Shown here: one piece after another, positions 10,502 through 24,669 of the stretch | How positions within the stretch are numbered: the first letter of the stretch is position 1 | Layout of the letters: each line of letters starts with the position of its first letter | Source: Phoronis ovalis | Taxonomy: Eukaryota; Phoronida; Phoronidae | Length of the DNA: 24,884 bases | Direction: 5' to 3' | NCBI GenBank assembly: GCA_028565635.1 | Contig: JAOXYB010061945.1 | Location: 1-24,884, forward strand | Program-made: the position numbers and the translations under genes | Notes under the pieces: model-generated | What the model was told of the DNA's origin: nothing | Seen by the model: the letters and a program-made list of their open reading frames with translations, nothing else | Databases searched by the model: none

Positions 10502-11060
10502 TCTGCCAAAAAATGTTTCAGACAAATAGTATTGATTCTAATGAAAATAAAGTTTTGGTATATTGTATGATTTGATATTTGATTCAGCTATCAATCGTAG
10601 AGCGTCTAGTAATGACAAGCATACATTTTACTTATACCGATGTTACATGTATATATGTGCTAATATGGATGAACTTCAAGCTTGCACTTTGTGGATATTG
10701 ATTAAAATCATTTTTCGTTTCAAGAAACACGTATAAATCAAGTTTAATTCATTTTTATGATTAAGAGTCTTCATTTGAGATTTTTTCCAGATGCCCGAAG
10801 TTTCAATGTAAATCTTTATAACTCACAAAAAATAACCAAATCATATTTAAGCTTGTAGAACTTTCCTGCTAAAAATACAGAAAACATAGTAGCATATTAT
10901 CAATGCAATGTTTTATTTTTTTCAACATGTGACGAAGACTACACAGTCATATTGTAGTCGAGAACACTTACTTATCTTAAGGGAGTTGACAATACCACTG
11001 GATAACACTGAACAGTGATGGTCAGGAATTGCGTACTTATGAGCTATATTTTTTTTTCAG

Positions 11061-11463
11061 CACGGAAAGCAGGGATAATCCTTTCCAGCCTGAAGGAGAC
11101 ATAAGCCAAGAAGTGAACTTAATTTTACGACATTCAAAAATCTCAGCTTCAGAAGTCGTAATAGTTGACCCTTCCAGTCCTAATTATAAAAATACCAATA
11201 GTCAGCAGCAAACGAATAGTCATGAAATATTGGAAGAATCAGTTAGTCCTAAAGTAAATTCTCCTGTCAATACATCTCCAGGAAGTCCCCAAGTAGATAG
11301 TCCAACGAAAGACGAGAAGGTAAAAAATGGTAACTTCGAAGAGACTGTTACACCGGAACAAGTGCAAGTTAGTGAGTCTTCCCCGGGGCAAACGACATCG
11401 CCAGAAGTAGAAGGTAGTCAGAATGAACCAAAGAAAAACAAGAAGTGTTGTACCATTCTTTAG
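11061..11463 (+). CDS. Last exon: phospho-site-rich tail ending in a CaaX box
   Basis: A T-rich tract and CAG precede 133 codons and a TAG at 11461-11463; incoming phase is 2. The start holds an NPF tripeptide (11077-11085), the known EH-domain ligand, and a conserved-looking segment with VNLILRHSKISASEVVIVD. A disordered stretch follows with nine Ser/Thr-Pro sites. The protein ends in a Lys/Asn basic cluster and CCTIL. CTIL is a CaaX box; a final Leu normally directs geranylgeranylation, and the Cys before it could be palmitoylated. The protein is therefore probably anchored on the inner face of a membrane. Paralemmins also end basic-Cys-CaaX, but the rest does not let me assign that family. 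Confidence 0.75.
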
Positions 11464-14845: not shown

Positions 14846-14940
14846 TCAGCGAGTAGAGGTATAATCAGCGAGTAGAGGTATAATCAGCGAGTAGAGGTAG
14901 AATCAGCGAGTAGAGGTATAATCAGCGAGTAGAGGTAGAA
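14846..14940 (+). repeat. 19-bp minisatellite, five copies
   Basis: Five head-to-tail copies of TCAGCGAGTAGAGGTATAA, followed by a partial TCAGC. Copies 3 and 5 carry TAGAA where 1, 2 and 4 carry TATAA, so a two-unit expansion step is likely. There are no spacers. It lies about 280 bp beyond the Cys-rich gene's last assigned stop. Confidence 0.9.
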
Positions 14941-15223
14941 TCAGCCGTAATTCAGTAAGAAAACCAAGTATTCGCATATGTAGCATTGCGTCACGCAAAA
15001 TATGTGTGTAGGGTTCCAATTCGATATTTATGCACAATATAAATACCTGACAGAACGTGTTCAAAGACTATCATCATTGTATCATAATGTTATTACCATT
15101 TTTTTAGTAATGCCTAAAGGTATAATTAAAGATCATACAGTTTTCAAATGAGCAGTGTGATCAAATTGTACTTGCCCATGTGGAACAATTTCGAATGCCG
15201 CTCTTATTGTCAGTAATTGAGAA

Positions 15224-15495
15224 TTATAACGCTGTTAATCGATTTTTTGTATAAAGTATGTTACTGACTGTAAGATCTTTCTTGTGCTTACCATTAACAG
15301 CGGGGTTCTCATTAGAAGCCAGTATGCACTTTCCTAGGCATTTCACACCAGCTAGGCCGACATACTTAATCCAACATCCAGCACTTTTACCACATTCCTG
15401 ATGCCATTGCGCAATTTGGGTAGCGGATTTACTTGCACATTTCGCCATGCACAAGACGAAGGAAACTGGTCCATCAACCATAATTTCGCCGTTCT
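15224..15495 (-). CDS. Exon 11: domain C3, probable last exon
   Basis: The acceptor is TTATTTAG before a phase-1 codon. The domain begins ENGEIMVDGPVSF and keeps all six Cys, but LGKS after the second Cys, seen in C1 and C2, has become ASKS. The frame continues past the domain for about 21 basic residues (starting KHKKDL) to TAA at 15224-15226. A donor at the same place as in C1 and C2 is kept (AATG|GTAAGC, exon end 15292). If used, another exon must follow; one option is a short exon from 15113 giving about ten residues. Confidence 0.7.
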
Positions 15496-18400
15496 CTAAA
15501 TAACAAAAAGCAAGTCATATTCTTATTTAAAAATTAGAAAATAAAATTTCGTGGTCGACTATAGGAAGTTCATTTTATTAAAAGCAGAAATTAAAAGCAG
15601 CAACACTTTTTATTCTGGGTTTTGAGCAGTTTCTAAGTTGGCTTTTTTAGTGTGTTGTTGGTATATTTTAAGTTACTACCCGTCATTTACGCACTATAAA
15701 AGTGTAAATATACAAAAATATATAAACTGAAAACAAAAAGCAAATATTTATAGTCTTGCAGGGTTGCTGTTTATCAACAAACATGTAACAAATATATAGA
15801 TACACGTAAATAGTCATATACCAGCTAATTCACGAATTTCGTCTTCATTCGCTCTACCGCAGACCATAGCATCGAGAGTAATGCATTCTCCTGTACATTT
15901 CAATCCTCTGAGGCCTACTTTTCCGACCCAGCATTTCGCAGATTTGCCACATTCAGAGTACCATTCCTCTACTTCAGCTAACGATTTGCCTAAGCATTTA
16001 GCCAGACAAGATAAAAAATTCTGAGGTTCGTCAACGGCGTCTAAGAAAAAAAACACATTCTACGATGGAAAAAAACCAATTAAAGTAAACTTTGTCAACA
16101 CTAAATGTCAACAGTTACGTAAGTTTGAACAAACCAGGTACATAGACTGATTTCTAAAAAGAATCACTGAATATAACACTTACCAAGCAGCACCTCGAAA
16201 TCAACCTCATTGCCTTCCGTTACATCTAACAAAATATATTTGCCGGCACATTCCAGTCCTTTAAGACCAACTTTCTTACCCCAACATTTGGCATTCGTGT
16301 GGCATTCGGAATACCACTTTCTAACTTGAGTCAGAGACTTTCCAACGCATTTGACCATGCATGTCAGAAAGCTAGATGGTTTTTTAACTTCTTGCTTCAT
16401 GAAAGTGGTATCTAACAGAAATAATAAGCACAGTTCAGTTTTTCGAGACAATTTACTTGGCACTCATATGCTGGGTCCTTACTGACAGCTAACATTTCCT
16501 TCCATTAAGATTTATACAGTTCTAGAATACAGTTCGAAAATAAATATTAATCAAGTGCAGAACATATTGGAGAGCATAAGATTCCTAGATACGAGCGACG
16601 AATGACGAGTAACAAGTGATTTTTCATATATGTATAAATGCAGACTAATTTTTTATACTTCTTGCTTTAGCAGTCGTGTCAGACGTACATATTTTATTCG
16701 TTACTCGTATCTTAGTGTCGTAGTTAAGAATTTTTATAAGCGCCCCTATTATATATTAAGCTAACAACCAAAGCTTTCAACCAGCTTCAACAACATCGCA
16801 CCAAATCTTTATTAGCTTCGGCGACATCTGGTGTAAGCAGGGACCTGACGATGCACTGTTTATTTGTAAATTGGGATTTTGTTACTATTCAGAATATCCG
16901 TTTTCTTTTAATGTTCGAGAAGGAAATATTGGAGATGTTCTCTCACTAAAGCAAATCTCGCGTTATAAAAATGTTAGTGATTTTTAAATGTTTCGTGAAC
17001 GTTTAATTTCCAACATTACCTCATCATTTGAAAAGCAAATTTATAATGTCTTGTTTATTCAGTTGCAAAACAACGTTTTCCTCGTGTTTGCTCACCTTCG
17101 ATGATAACTGGCTCATGATCATTTCGTTTCTCATCATCTAGGACACATTTCCCTAAACATTTCACGGCAGCTAAGCCGACATGTTTGGTCCAACACCCAG
17201 CACTTTTGCCACATTCCTGGTGCCATTGTGCAATTTGAGTAGCGGATTTACCTAAACATTTCGCCATACAAAAGACGAAGGACACTGGTCCATCAACCAA
17301 TACGTCACCATTGTCTAGATAATAAATAAGCAACAGTTAACTTAAAACTTGACAGTTAACCAGAATAAACATATCGATTGAATACTATTATTTTACACTG
17401 ACAAAAGTTGTTGAACTGCATTGGGTTTATACCGACAATGTGCTTTAACTAAACTGGGCTTTGTGAAAAATTGTAGATAGATTATAGTAAAACCTTGGGG
17501 TTGTTGGAACTTAAATAAAACAAAGATAAAGCGCAATGGGTAATGTACCAGCCAAATTATTGAATTCGTCTTCAATCCCTCTATCACAGACCATAGCATC
17601 GAGAGTAATGCATTCTCCTGTACATTTCAATCCTCTGAGGCCTACTTTTCCGACCCAACATTTCGCAGATTTGCCACATTCAGAGTACCATTCCTCAACT
17701 TCAGCTAACGATTTGCCTAAGCATTTAGCTAGACAAGATAAAAAATTCTGAGGTTCGTCAACGGCATCTAAGGAAAAAAACATTCTACGATGGAAAAAAC
17801 AATTACAATGAACTTTGTCAATTGAACAGTAGACGTAAACAGTTACGGAATTTTTGCATAAATCGGGTACAGAGATTCGTTTCCAAAAAAATAGAATCAA
17901 TATTCAAAATACATTTCAGCTACTGACACCACTGAATTTAACACATACCAAGTAACACCTCGAAATCAAGTTCATTGCCTTCCATTACGGCATCTAGCAG
18001 AATACATTGGCCGGCACATTTCAGTCCTGTAAGACCAACCTTCTTAGCCCAACATTTGGCATTCGTGTGACACTCGGAATACCATTGTTCAACTTGAGTT
18101 AAAGACTTTCCAACACATTTGACCATACATGTCAGAAAGCTAAGTGGTTTATCAACTTCTTGCTTCATGAAAGTGGTATCTAACAGAAATAATTGGTACA
18201 GTTCAGTCTTTAGAGACCAATTTACGCATTTCAACAGTTGGCATTCACATGCTAGGTGACTAATGACTTTCCGATCCATTTTGCCAAACCTCATAGAAAG
18301 CTAACATTTTCTACCATGAATATTCATTCAGTTCTAGAATAACTTCATTAGAAATAAATATTAGTTAACTGCCGAGCATATCGGAAGCAAATGTTAGAAA

Positions 18401-20648
18401 TGTTTTCTGACCAAAATTTTAATGATGTTTAAATATTTAGCATTCATTTAATTTCTAACTTTATCTCCTTGTTAAAAATGCCTTACACGAACAAAATTAG
18501 TCGTGTTTATTCAGTTGCAAACACCGTTTTTCTCACTATTTGCTCACCTTCAATAACTGGCTCAATTCGTTCCTCATCACCTAGGACACATTTCCCTAAA
18601 CATTTCACGGCAGTTAAACCGACATGTTTGGTCCAACATCCAGCACTTTTGCCACATTCCTGGTGCCATTGTGCAATTTGGGTAGCGGATTTACCTAGAC
18701 ATTTCGCCATACAAAAGACGAAGGACATCGGTCCATCAACCAAAACGTCACCATTGTCTAGATAATAAATAAGCTACCAGAATAAGCATATCGATTGAAT
18801 ACTATTATTTTACACTGAAAAAAATTGTTGAACTACACTGGATACAATAAAGCAAAAGCGTACATATCGACAATATATGCTTTAACTGAATTGGGTTCAA
18901 TGAGACTTTCTAGACTATAATAAAACCTTGCTGGTACTCAAAGAAAAACATAGGTAAAGCACAATGGTTAATATACCAATCAAACCCTTGAATTCGTCTT
19001 CACTTCCTCTACCACAAACCATGGCATCGAGAGTAATGCATTCTCCTGTACATTTCAGTCCTCTCAGCCCTACTTTTCCAATCCAACATTTCGCAGATTT
19101 GCCGCATTCAGAGTACCAAGTTTTTACATCGGCTAAAGATTTGCCTAAGCATTTAGCCAGGCAGGATAAAAAATTCTGAGGCTCATCTACGCTGTCTGTG
19201 AACAAATAAATATTCTGCGTGAAAGAAACCAAATTGAAAGCAGTTACCTGTTTTTAAATATAAAAGATACACAGGGCGGTTTCTACAAAAACAAAAAAAA
19301 GAATCAATATTTATATACAGTCTTTTCAGAAGACAGTTTCAATATCATGTTGTACAGTGACATTTATTTGATATTTAATATTCTTGGTTTTACCTCGAAT
19401 TGAATACAATATTTACCAAATAACGCATCTAAGTCAATGTCTTTCTCTTCCACAATGGCATCTGACAGAATACATTGTCCGGCACATTTCAGTCCTTTAA
19501 GACCAATCTTCTTAGCCCAACATTTGGCACTGGTATGGCACTCGGAGTTCCACTGCTCAACTTGAGCTAAAGATTTTCCAACACATTTAACCATGCATGT
19601 CAAGAAGCTAAGTGGTTTGCCAACTTCTGAAATAAAAATATCCTAATATGTTTATAGCTACAGTATGCATAACTATGTTTTAAAACAAATAATAATCTTT
19701 ACTTCTTATGAAATTAAAAAAGTTACTGCATGAATACAATGATGGCATCGTTAACGGTTCCGTCGTTACTGAATACATTTTAGTATATATGTCTAAATAT
19801 AAATTAAATTATTAAATGTGCTAAAACATAATCAATACGCTTGAAAAAATGTATACAATTTTATAAACTAGTAAATATAAATATGTTTATTTTAAAGAGT
19901 AGTATACATACATAAGATTAGTTACATTTGATATACTTTATTCGACAGCTACATCTTGTACACATGTCACATGTGAATGCTGCAAGTTGATTTTATAATG
20001 GTTTAATCATTATAAAGATTAATATAATTCGGGCAAAGTATTGGGTTCCAACTGGATGCACGCGCATTGCTCTTAATAAATTTTACCTTTGTTTAGTTCG
20101 GTATTTTAGCGACTATGGAAACAGTACATATTTTTCAAATAATGGAATTGTTGCAACTGACAAATTTTTAATTAAACATGTAAAGATGAATAGTAACTGA
20201 ATTTCGGGGAAAATTAAACTTACCTGTTTCATAGCGGTCTGCTCCATATAAGACCGGATCTGAAATTTAAATCATTTAAAATCTCTTGAATAAATTAATA
20301 GCGTTAACTAGATTTCAATTTAAAATGATTTTACACTAAGGAGTCTAAATGCAGAATGAGAATGCTGAATTACAATTTCGTATATTTTCGTAAATTATAT
20401 ACAGGAATAACATTACGAACAACCGGTTATTTTTTGTAAACAATGTGTTATTTCCGAACTTAAAAAAGCCTGCAAATACTATTTGTATAGTCATCGGTGT
20501 GTCGGCGATTTCGTGCTAAAGAGAACGGGTGGCTAGATGGCTTGGATGATGCTTCGCTTTAAAAACTGTTATGAATGAAACAATACTTACTAGCTAGTGC
20601 ACCACAGATTACAAAGGTGAAAATAACAAAACCGGTTAAATGTCTCAT
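15224..20648 (-). CDS. Secreted protein with nine tandem six-Cys domains (whole gene, 11 exons)
   Basis: The exons join in one frame to about 706 residues: a 19-residue signal peptide, a 12-residue linker and nine domains of 68-77 residues. Every intron is in phase 1, so each domain exon can be duplicated without breaking the frame. Every domain has the pattern C-x3-C-x14-C-x5-C-x11-C-x3-C (one lacks the last Cys), with a Trp before the third Cys and another after the fourth. Three sequence types follow in the order A-B-C, three times. The protein is probably secreted and disulfide-rich. The spacing suggests a helical hairpin closed by the two C-x3-C motifs, plus a small C-x5-C loop (inference). 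It does not match CS-alpha-beta defensins, which need C-x-C. Family not recognised; role could be structural, immune or binding. The 3' end is uncertain. Confidence 0.8.
15822..16040 (-). CDS. Exon 10: domain B3
   Basis: 219 nt, phase 1 to phase 1, acceptor TTTTTTTTCTTAG, donor GCTG|GTATAT. Begins DAVDEPQNFLSCLAKC and is almost identical to B2 across the Cys core. It carries a seventh Cys in AMVC, after the sixth, as in every B domain. The C-terminal linker is acidic (ANEDEI). Confidence 0.85.
16184..16411 (-). CDS. Exon 9: domain A3, lacking the sixth Cys
   Basis: 228 nt, phase 1 to phase 1, acceptor TTTCTGTTAG, donor CTTG|GTAAGTG. Begins DTTFMKQEVKKPSSFLTC. The final conserved Cys is Tyr here: CAGKYIL against CAGQCIL in A1 and A2, a TGT to TAT difference. 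Splice sites and frame are otherwise intact, so this is not a dead exon. Confidence 0.85.
16574..16925. mobile_element. 352-bp insertion with 10-bp flanking repeat, in the C2-A3 intron
   Basis: The 10-mer ATATTGGAGA occurs at 16564-16573 and 16926-16935. Intron sequence on both sides resembles the homologous intron of the next cassette upstream (about 18333-18460), which lacks the intervening 352 bp and has a single copy of the site. The left part contains AGATACGAG and CGAGTAAC, which pair with GTTACTCGTATCT further in (16700-16712). This looks like a small non-autonomous transposon, class unknown; no coding capacity. Confidence 0.5.
17096..17314 (-). CDS. Exon 8: domain C2
   Basis: 219 nt, phase 1 to phase 1, acceptor TTATTATCTAG, donor GAAG|GTGAGC. 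Begins DNGDVLVDGPVSFVFC. It is nearly identical to C1 through the core but has a linker three residues longer (the NDH region). All six Cys present. Confidence 0.87.
17549..17767 (-). CDS. Exon 7: domain B2
   Basis: 219 nt, phase 1 to phase 1, acceptor TTTTTTCCTTAG, donor GCTG|GTACAT. Six core Cys plus the B-type seventh (AMVC). The domain core matches B3 and differs at several positions from B1 (for example AEVEEW against ADVKTW), so B2 and B3 are the closest B pair. Confidence 0.87.
17949..18179 (-). CDS. Exon 6: domain A2
   Basis: 231 nt, phase 1 to phase 1, acceptor TTTCTGTTAG, donor CTTG|GTATGT. Begins DTTFMKQEVDKPLSFLTC; all six Cys present; linker ends LDFEVLL. It shares the six-residue TTFMKQ lead with A3 but not with A1. 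Confidence 0.87.
18548..18757 (-). CDS. Exon 5: domain C1
   Basis: 210 nt, phase 1 to phase 1, acceptor TTATTATCTAG, donor GAAG|GTGAGC. Begins DNGDVLVDGPMSFVFC with all six Cys. C domains have HQEC before the third-Cys loop where A and B have YSEC or NSEC, and VDGP in the lead. Confidence 0.87.
18977..19195 (-). CDS. Exon 4: domain B1
   Basis: 219 nt, phase 1 to phase 1, acceptor TTTGTTCACAG, donor ATTG|GTATAT. Begins DSVDEPQNFLSCLAKC. Six core Cys plus the B-type seventh. This is the most divergent B copy. Confidence 0.87.
19417..19626 (-). CDS. Exon 3: domain A1
   Basis: 210 nt, phase 1 to phase 1, acceptor TTTTTATTTCAG, donor TTTG|GTAAAT. Begins EVGKPLSFLTC. It lacks the TTFMKQ lead of A2 and A3, because its acceptor lies where those exons have an internal CAAG|AAGTT. 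It carries Asn where the others have Tyr before the third Cys (NSEC). All six Cys present. Confidence 0.85.
19627..20223 (-). other. Intron between linker exon and domain A1
   Basis: Starts GTAAGT and ends TTTCAG on the minus strand. AT-rich; nothing recognisable inside. Confidence 0.6.
20224..20259 (-). CDS. Exon 2: 36-nt linker exon
   Basis: Acceptor TTTAAATTTCAG and donor ACAG|GTAAGT, phase 1 to phase 1. It encodes NPVLYGADRYET with Asn and Gly/Glu codons split at the edges, right after the signal peptide. It could be a short propeptide or the N-terminus of the mature protein. Strong splice sites and phase agreement support it. Confidence 0.75.
20591..20648 (-). CDS. Exon 1: start codon and signal peptide
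   Basis: ATG at 20648-20646 in the context CCAAAATG (A at -3). It encodes MRHLTGFVIFTFVICGALA: basic start, hydrophobic core, and an A-L-A end typical of signal peptidase cleavage. It ends with one base of the next codon at a consensus A|GTAAGT donor, so in phase 1 like all other introns of the gene. A TATA box 55-62 nt upstream fits this start. Confidence 0.85.
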
Positions 20649-21281: not shown

Positions 21282-21427
21282 ATATCAAACATAAATTTTA
21301 GTCCAAAACTGAATCATACTTATTAAGCCATGAGAGCTTTCGGTCTTATCACAAGACCTTCATCAGTCCTACTAACTGTGGCTTAATAAGTATGATTCAG
21401 TTTTGGACTAAAATTTATGTTTGATAT
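21282..21427. repeat. Perfect 49-bp inverted repeat with 48-nt loop
   Basis: Arms 21282-21330 and 21379-21427 are exactly complementary over 49 bp. The 48-nt loop contains its own 6-bp stem (GGTCTT with AAGACC). A perfect long arm implies a recent origin, or upkeep by a mobile element. No flanking target duplication was evident. Confidence 0.95.
21325..21366 (-). ncRNA. Hammerhead-ribozyme-like motif in the hairpin loop
   Basis: On the minus strand: CTGATGA (21366-21360), one extra A, a 6-bp stem closed by GTGAT, then GAAA (21341-21338) and a possible 3-bp stem III (AGC with GCT, then T). This is the core order of a hammerhead: CUGAUGA, stem II, GAAA, stem III, UH. Stem I does not form next to CUGAUGA, and the extra A before stem II is atypical, so it may be inactive. 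Penelope-like retroelements are known to carry such motifs. Confidence 0.4.
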
Positions 21428-22430: not shown

Positions 22431-23254
22431 TCACTGAATATTGTTGTCCAGGTGGAAACTTGTAGACAACTGCTGTACAACTCCACCGCGTTTAGTACGA
22501 ATTTCCTTAAATTGGCTACGAGAGGATGGCTCCGTTCTCGTCTGTTGGTGTATTTTCTTTGTACTATCGAGTGCCTTTCTAGTTTCAGTTATTTCACGGT
22601 CGAGTATGCACAGAGAAGATAAAATATCAGAATCACAAGTACAACAGCAAGAATTCTTGTTGTTATTATTGTTGTTATTGCAGTTAGTGTTATTTTTATT
22701 GTTGGCTCTTTTTGCATCAGTCGCATTAGGGGGGACGAGAACGCAGTGTCCACCAACACGTCTTAAGGGCTTGTGTGCAGATCTAGAGACACGGTGGCTA
22801 TTTCCCCCAGGTCCCCATCGTCCGCTGGCCATGACGTTTGCTACCACTACTTGACCTGGCGATAAATTCTTTGTCGTAGTTGGTGTAGTAGATTCAGTAG
22901 GATTTTTTCCTTCGGCAGCTAATTTTTCGAACAGTTTCCTTAAATCTTTAGTATTAACTGCAGGTTTATCACTCTTTGTATCTCTTTTAGCATCGTCTGT
23001 TTTTGCAGGACGTTCTTCGATTTGTTTTGGATCTTTTTCAAGTTTTATCTGAACTAAATTATTAGGATTTCTACCGCCAGGTTCCGCTAGTGCTTTCAAA
23101 CCACGTACGTCAGTGGTATTGTAATGAATATTAGCATGTGTGCTTGGCACATTTGTTTGTGGAGGGGCTCCCTGTTGATAATTCCTTCCCCAGGGTGGAG
23201 GTCCGAATTGATTTGACTGTCCCAGAAAATGTAAAGGGTTGTGCTGCATCATAC
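22431..23254 (-). CDS. Last exon of a Pro/Gln-rich disordered protein
   Basis: The acceptor ATATTTTAG is entered in phase 1, matching the donor at 23617. The exon encodes 273 residues: a PPPWG/Gln/Pro-rich start, a segment with DVRGLKALAEPGG, a Lys/Asp-charged region, a likely helix (TKDLRKLFEKLAAEGK), a Gly/Arg-rich part (GRWGPGGNSHR), a poly-Asn tract, a Cys cluster (CCCTC) and a charged, possibly helical C-terminus. Mostly low complexity and probably disordered. Composition recalls RNA-binding or translation-related scaffolds such as eIF4G N-termini, but no diagnostic domain is seen; family not recognised. Confidence 0.7.
22658..22706 (-). repeat. AAY codon repeat encoding poly-Asn
   Basis: Interrupted AAC/AAT run within the last exon; Asn is broken by Lys, Thr and Cys. 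Such trinucleotide tracts vary in length between alleles. A long plus-strand Leu-rich frame over it is only its complement. Confidence 0.8.
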
Positions 23255-23616
23255 CTAAAATATGACAAATGGTTATTTCAAGTCTAGATCTTCCTTCGAT
23301 ACACTTGATGCATTTCTTTTGAATACAGTTACTTAATCTAGAAGGCATTGCCGACGTTTACATATGTTGCAGCACCATTAAGGGTACCCACAAGGCACCT
23401 ACATAAAATAAGTCCATTCACTACAGTGATCTAATGCAGAAAGATCATAATTTGAAATAACTTTTCGGAATAGTACTAATGATTACATTGCATTGTTCAC
23501 TGTCACATGTGGTATTTTTAACAGTAGAAGAATAAAAAAAGGGCACCATAAATTCTGTAAATTTTCGTCTAAAGATTCGCTGTCATTCACTGTTATCTTT
23601 ATTATGTTGCTACTAC

Positions 23617-23813
23617 CTTGATTGTCGTGCACTATGGCCGGGTAAACAAAGCGCTGCTGCTGATATGTCTGTGGCCGAGGGTGCTGTGATGTTGCTTGAG
23701 CTGCCTGTGCATATTGCGCTCGATACATGCCAACAGAGGGAGCTTCGCCGGGTCGAACATATTGCTGCCATCGATAATGAGGCGGACAGTGAGTTGGTGC
23801 CACTACTGGCTGC
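23617..23813 (-). CDS. Penultimate exon of the Pro/Gln-rich gene
   Basis: 197 nt, phase 2 in and phase 1 out; acceptor CACTGTATGCAG, donor CAAG|GTAGTA. Encodes QPVVAPTHCPPHYRWQQYV and a Tyr/Gln/Ala-rich stretch ending IVHDNQG. The phases agree on both sides, which fixes the frame. The same frame runs on past the donor for about 45 codons, which I take as intron. Confidence 0.65.
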
Positions 23814-24196
23814 CTGCATACAGTGAATGCAATAATTTAATTATCCTTAAAACAATTATTTCTCTTTGTCATAATAATAAAATTTATGACTACGCAGCTT
23901 GGATTTTTTTCAAACAATTCTAGTGAGTATATGAATTGCGACGTTGAATTAACAAAGTTGACGTTAATAGAAATAAGGTTAGCTCGCTTGTCGATCGTAT
24001 AGTTTGATTTATTTACATTTCACAAAAAAATAAACTAGAAACTGAGAATTACATGCAAATTTGCAACGGTTGCGGTAACTATGTACTATAAAAGATGCAG
24101 CACAGCATCTGCAGATTTTTTAAAAATTATGATCAGCGTGATTCGTGAAGAGGATATCTGCTTCTTGTATACTAAGGATCACGTGGAATAACATAC

Positions 24197-24405
24197 CTTA
24201 CATTTGGTACCTGTTGGTAATTATTCGTTTGTTGGGTATTCATAGCCCACTGACTAGCTTGAACAAACTGTGGATGTGCAAACAGAGATGGCGGAGGGTA
24301 GTGAGTGTCCTGGGCAGAGAAAACTGGCTGCTGTGGAGGAGGTCGGGCCCATGCATTCTGAAATCCGGGGGGTGGCTGGGCGGCTTGACTATGAGTGGTA
24401 GGAGC
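24197..24405 (-). CDS. Internal exon of the Pro/Gln-rich gene
   Basis: 209 nt, phase 0 in and phase 2 out; acceptor CATTTTTTTTCAG, donor GTAAG|GTATGT. Rich in Pro, Gln and aromatic residues (QPPPGFQNAWARPPPQQPVF, then YPPPSLFAHPQF), with no stop. Pro-aromatic spacing of this kind is typical of disordered RNA-granule or adaptor proteins. No domain assigned. Confidence 0.7.
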
Positions 24406-24669
24406 CTGAAAAAAAATGGTGGCATGGAGTAAAATAAAACATATATTTTTATCATGCTAGGCATTCATGTGCGCACCCACTGGTTTTGTTTTATCCAGCG
24501 AGAGATACAAGCGGTGTAAAATCGATTACTCGCTTTGTCATGTGACTTGTTAAAATTCCATTGACAAGTCAGACATTTTTACGTCAATCTGTATCCTTCA
24601 AAATGTTATGAAAATTATTAGACAATGACAGTGGTCTGAAATTAAGATAAAATCCTATAAAATGGTAAC

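Follow-up and report, generated by a model that had tools for sequence, protein, structure and literature searches.

Class 1-1 exon-shuffling modules are flanked by phase-1 introns, and the available part of PMC8001218 describes the most used of these modules as mainly beta, mainly-alpha ones making up a negligible fraction. Progranulin, as far as it is treated in the excerpts of PMC4527844, is a secreted chain of Cys-rich modules in which near-identical tandem modules recur and the number of modules changes through exon duplication and loss, and the A-band super-repeats of titin (excerpts of PMC3859903) provide a repeated higher-order unit made up of several domains. We found likenesses to all three in a single gene of Phoronis ovalis, located on the minus strand of a stretch of DNA of 24,884 nt (hereafter the window), which encodes nine Cys-rich domains in a row. 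With the class 1-1 modules this gene shares the phase-1 introns that flank the domains, a phase-1 intron after a signal-like leader and the likely secretion of its product; unlike the most used of those modules its domain is predicted to be all-helical, and it was met here solely in this gene and five relatives built of the same domain. Progranulin differs in that its granulin module (same excerpts) has 12 Cys and is encoded by two exons, and no sequence match to it appeared in our Pfam scans; titin differs in that it is a muscle protein built of Ig and Fn3 domains, with which no sequence kinship is claimed. By analogy, progranulin would offer the best comparison for the evolution of such a protein, and the class 1-1 modules that for its gene structure.

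The gene runs from position 20648 to about 15224 and consists of a signal-like exon 1, a short exon 2 and nine domain exons (exons 3-11), all on the minus strand. Exon 1 (20591-20648) holds the start codon and a hydrophobic signal-like leader, MRHLTGFVIFTFVICGALA, and ends in phase 1; it is from this leader, judged by eye to be a signal peptide, that we infer secretion. Exon 2 (20224-20259; 36 nt, phase 1-1) encodes a short spacer peptide and is followed by the domain exons A1 (19417-19626), B1 (18977-19195), C1 (18548-18757), A2 (17949-18179), B2 (17549-17767), C2 (17096-17314), A3 (16184-16411), B3 (15822-16040) and C3 (15224-15495). A first-pass annotation had placed nine domain exons within 15224-19626 and these were all recovered; the start of the gene, however, lies further upstream at 20648, with the signal-like exon and the 36-nt exon preceding the domains. 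All introns had been described as being in phase 1, and this is indeed the case for the ten introns from exon 1 through exon 11 (all with GT/AG borders), so that every module is bordered by phase-1 introns, C3 at least at its 5' side. C3 either continues as far as the stop at 15224 or is spliced after 15292, where a donor-like GTAAGC sits at the position of the C1 and C2 donors, so that a further terminal exon may follow; the gene end at 15224 represents the read-through reading and the C-terminus of the protein possibly lies in that further exon. Protein searches of the 77.4-Mb genome (an assembly that may be incomplete) with A1, C2 and an Owenia fusiformis domain hit the same nine places each time and otherwise a single row with an E of 1.87, which makes this the one gene with the domain detected there.

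The Cys spacing 3-14-5-11-3 is complete in eight of the nine domains. In A3 Tyr replaces Cys6, which leaves five Cys, and B1, B2 and B3 each have seven Cys, with seven residues separating Cys6 and the seventh; the identical spacing claimed earlier for all nine domains is therefore true of eight, and had to be amended for A3 and for the extra Cys of the B domains. For every domain in the window the nearest partner belongs to its own class. This partner lies exactly three places away in 9/9 domains by multiple alignment and in 8/9 by pairwise alignment, the exception being C3 (70% to C1, six places off, versus 67%), in agreement with the earlier observation that each domain is closest to the one three places away and not to its neighbour. 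Identity ranges from 66 to 92% within classes (9 pairs) and from 41 to 59% between classes (27 pairs), and the A/B/C split ranks first among all 280 partitions into three trios. The nine same-class pairs have dN/dS values of 0.14-0.34, and inside the duplicated block (see below) the exons are more similar than the introns; such low dN/dS values indicate constraint on the protein.

A full-length protein search, with scoring confined to the 7,997 candidates that had most words in common, returned two proteins with tandem copies of the same domain: LOC135487723 of the nemertean Lineus longissimus (P0001; 682 aa, E 3.2e-144) and a protein of the annelid Owenia fusiformis (P0002; 573 aa, E 8.9e-103). 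A single-domain profile added one ENA protein without a name (P0003) and a four-domain profile two more (P0004 and P0005); the 19-row domain profile was built without A3 and B3 of the window, Lineus domains 3-5 and Owenia domain 3. The profile searches, of a kind advised in the first-pass annotation, returned these three unnamed proteins. On the strength of these matches the gene is not an orphan, its nemertean and annelid relatives being labelled 'uncharacterized' or 'unnamed', and the extracellular toolkit would gain a module that has no curated Pfam model and is shared by one nemertean and one annelid at the least. By prediction this module is all-helical, in contrast to the mainly-beta build that PMC8001218 (available part) gives for the class 1-1 modules used most. 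P0001 and P0002 resemble the window protein in the tandem domain, in the 3-14-5-11-3 spacing (8/9 domains of P0001 and 7/7 of P0002), in a hydrophobic start and in linkers that sum to net acidic, and are unlike it in the absence of the seventh Cys and of an A-B-C alternation in the tree. Cys1-5 and the Trp after Cys4 are conserved in 33/33 domains and Cys6 in 32/33, of which the Trp alone is a free observation, since the rows were chosen by Cys pattern and the Cys counts are therefore partly built in. The five relatives have no credible second domain (P0001 gave a PF08306 row covering 62/326 profile positions).

A tree was built from 33 domains belonging to five proteins, with P0003 (which has no Cys1) and the two incomplete terminal domains of P0004 set aside. 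In it A, B and C each form a clade (UFboot 96/100/96); good support is limited to four of the 26 inner branches and the deep forks are tentative. Neighbouring domains of the window, whose union in a tree the first-pass annotation had named as evidence against its view, are thus kept apart. Neighbours do group in Lineus (domains 2-5; 86/90) and in Owenia (domains 2-3; 99/98), indicating that the three-place pattern, seen solely in the Phoronis ovalis genome, is not family-wide, and that single domains were likely copied in the other two species.

The nine-exon array records its own growth, with intron homology ordering the copies. Its most similar stretch runs C-A-B and comprises intron-C1-A2-B2 (17549-18976, minus strand; 1,428 bp) and intron-C2-A3-B3 (15822-17548, minus strand; 1,727 bp). 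Among the 36 intron pairs compared, the shuffle z is 18.6 for B1>C1/B2>C2, 10.5 for C1>A2/C2>A3 and 12.0 for A2>B2/A3>B3, and introns homologous between blocks imply that genomic blocks were copied and not single exons. Weaker values were found for B2>C2/B3>C3 (z 3.4), A1>B1/A2>B2 (z 3.4) and A1>B1/A3>B3 (z 4.4), and a z near 4 has little meaning because unrelated pairs reach 4.5 (first intron versus A1>B1). The C2>A3 intron exceeds C1>A2 by 316 bp (window positions ~16571-16968), and this added DNA matches only itself in the 77.4-Mb genome. The dS of the close pairs is 0.14 (B2-B3), 0.19 (C1-C2) and 0.34 (A2-A3), and that of the other six same-class pairs 0.50 (A1-A2), 0.58 (B1-B2), 0.72 (A1-A3 and B1-B3), 0.82 (C1-C3) and 1.11 (C2-C3). 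Third-position identity between C1A2B2 and C2A3B3 is 88.9% (95% interval 84.3-92.6), whereas the two A-B-C registers reach 78.1% and 79.4%; between B1C1A2 and B2C2A3 it is 82.9% (77.8-88.0), an interval that overlaps the former.

Since the most similar stretch, introns included, runs C-A-B, the newest duplication likely took place in that register, with C1-A2-B2 and C2-A3-B3 as the close pair. The three-exon block with phase-1 borders that had been proposed as the unit of growth is hereby retained, but not its A-B-C register for the last event, as the last block spans the border between apparent A-B-C cassettes. Along exon B, compared in steps of 40 columns, B2 and B3 are closest over the first 160 columns, with a near tie over the next 40; past this region B1-B2 becomes the closest pair and the alignment of the B3 intron is poor, apart from two deviating steps of which one is just five columns long. 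Close to the 3' end of exon B, then, the pair of nearest partners changes from B2-B3 to B1-B2. The simplest account would be that A-B-[C-A-B]-C became A-B-[C-A-B]-[C-A-B]-C, the block arising from one unequal exchange that had its ends close to where exon B finishes (3' end) and that followed an older doubling of the A-B-C set. Gene conversion could leave the same traces as a recent C-A-B duplication, and B2 and B3 are indeed more alike than A2 and A3. Contrary to the nucleotide data, the protein tree, which is based on short protein cores, joins C2 with C3 (97/75) and not with C1; A2 is found with A3 at 80/0 only. For work on the evolution of repeats and modules the gene is of interest as a clean case for testing multi-exon repeat growth and the tuning of domain number between species.

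None of the nine window domains, scanned singly, reaches a Pfam cut-off (best DUF4787, PF16029, with 13.4 bits), and the 19-domain profile has no match among PDB sequences. No paper came up in text searches of the literature for the Lineus locus name, the CMAKCLGKS motif or DUF4787, and the listings and abstract openings of papers matching more general terms describe no such domain. To that extent the earlier suggestion of an undescribed secreted repeat protein is supported. P0004 and P0005 gave 17 and 16 Pfam rows, respectively, none over its cut-off. Whole multi-domain proteins did give rows above cut-off: PF05241 (EBP) for the spliced window protein (28.7 versus 25.7 bits), PF02938 (GAD) and NCBIfam TIGR02675 for P0001 (29.8 versus 23.4 and 37 versus 21.35, the other 12 NCBIfam rows being below their cut-offs) and PF23282 for P0002 (26.2 versus 24), in none of which a stretch passes alone, and PF08306 for P0001 (27.6 versus 23), with the one stretch mentioned above. 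We take these rows as weak matches summed over repeats or, for PF08306, possibly as chance. The database records of P0001 and P0002 carry precomputed Pfam labels (PF02938 and PF23282, respectively), which are likely such sums as well. Small Tims (twin CX3C proteins) are mitochondrial, have no signal peptide and contain two CX3C pairs and no further Cys, a pattern from which the window domains depart. Similarly, a granulin needs a 12-Cys module and the window modules have five to seven Cys. Nemertean cytolysin A and parborlysin are, in the available part of PMC11126048, cytolysins of about 10 kDa.

Structure prediction of one domain, another of the checks proposed earlier, gave three helices, with a pLDDT of 86-91 in the core blocks of a model that rests on 10 sequences. 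The multi-domain prediction for P0005, a low-confidence model, consists of helical domains divided by stretches with a pLDDT below 50 (pTM 0.23), and thus no fixed domain arrangement is predicted; the linkers are predicted to be poorly ordered. The charges of the cores add up to +40 in the window protein and those of its linkers plus tails to -47, the corresponding sums being +46/-31 for P0001 and +27/-28 for P0002, a contrast that is not general, as P0004 has +10/-4 (three intact cores) and P0005 -1/-5. On the basis of sequence and models we tentatively favour, at a probability of about 0.4, a secreted beads-on-a-string protein with an undescribed helical module, which may serve as a flexible multivalent extracellular binder or scaffold. 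Nine three-helix domains on flexible linkers, each likely held by paired disulfides, would bind or cross-link extracellular partners in a multivalent manner. The weakest step in this proposal is that the seventh Cys of B1-B3 and the leftover Cys of A3 might join chains together or to other proteins.

An uncut multivalent secreted chain is favoured over a polyprotein store, from which proteases would free cationic Cys-rich helical peptides that the acidic linkers hold inactive beforehand, comparable to granulins and progranulin. Cationic cores and acidic linkers are present in three of the five multi-domain proteins, and the release of Cys-rich modules from progranulin (PMC4527844, excerpts) is a precedent. 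Dibasic pairs occur in the linkers of P0004 (2/2 counted) and P0005 (2/4), but in just 1/8 window, 0/8 Lineus and 1/6 Owenia linkers, which disfavours prohormone-like cutting in these three. Moreover, defence effectors often change fast, unlike the domains of this gene with their low within-gene dN/dS, and we regard such a store as unlikely. Equally unlikely, in our estimate, is a structural mucus, tube or matrix protein with chains disulfide-joined via the odd Cys of B1-B3 and A3. It would account for the seventh Cys in 3/3 B domains and the five Cys of A3, and Lineus has a near-identical domain array (domains 2-5); however, the Lineus and Owenia domains lack the odd Cys, so that any cross-linking role would be lineage-specific, and it could also remain free or pair with A3 within one chain.

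Slightly less probable again is that the window protein represents a divergent, tandemly expanded branch of DUF4787, a family of unknown function to which C17orf67 presumably belongs, and shares the role of that family. The weak matches do have one register in common, with Cys3-Cys6 on positions 3-35 of the 63-position profile. They are limited to three of the nine window domains (A1 13.4, A2 11.8 and C3 12.3 bits, with no match for the other six) and to 4/19 alignment members at an E up to 1, the highest scores in relatives being those of Owenia domain 1 (20.1 bits, E 0.0007), P0003 (16.8) and Owenia domain 4 (16.6). Every match is thus below the curated cut-off of 27 bits and about half of the profile is aligned, which speaks against membership of the family. 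Very doubtful, finally, is the wider idea of a spiralian all-helical class 1-1 module without a curated model that would build extracellular polymers, in arrays grown per lineage (by single domains in Lineus and Owenia and by three-exon blocks in Phoronis) and with the odd Cys of the B domains as a periodic disulfide cross-linker.

Several other features were observed in the DNA around the gene. At 21282-21427 a 48-nt spacer separates the arms of a perfect 49-nt inverted repeat; the element is MITE-like and matches many contigs of the genome (98 rows, some of which represent both strands of one place), and a 19-nt tandem repeat of about five units, with a T/G variant, lies past the 3' end of the gene (14846-14945). 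On the minus strand, 22431-24456 contains open frames that include Pro/Gln-rich stretches and a poly-Asn tract, without an above-cut-off Pfam match in the three that were scanned. On the plus strand, an open frame of 157 residues (10990-11463), likewise without an above-cut-off Pfam match, has the CAAX-like end KKNKKCCTIL and is possibly the last exon of a gene for a prenylated protein.
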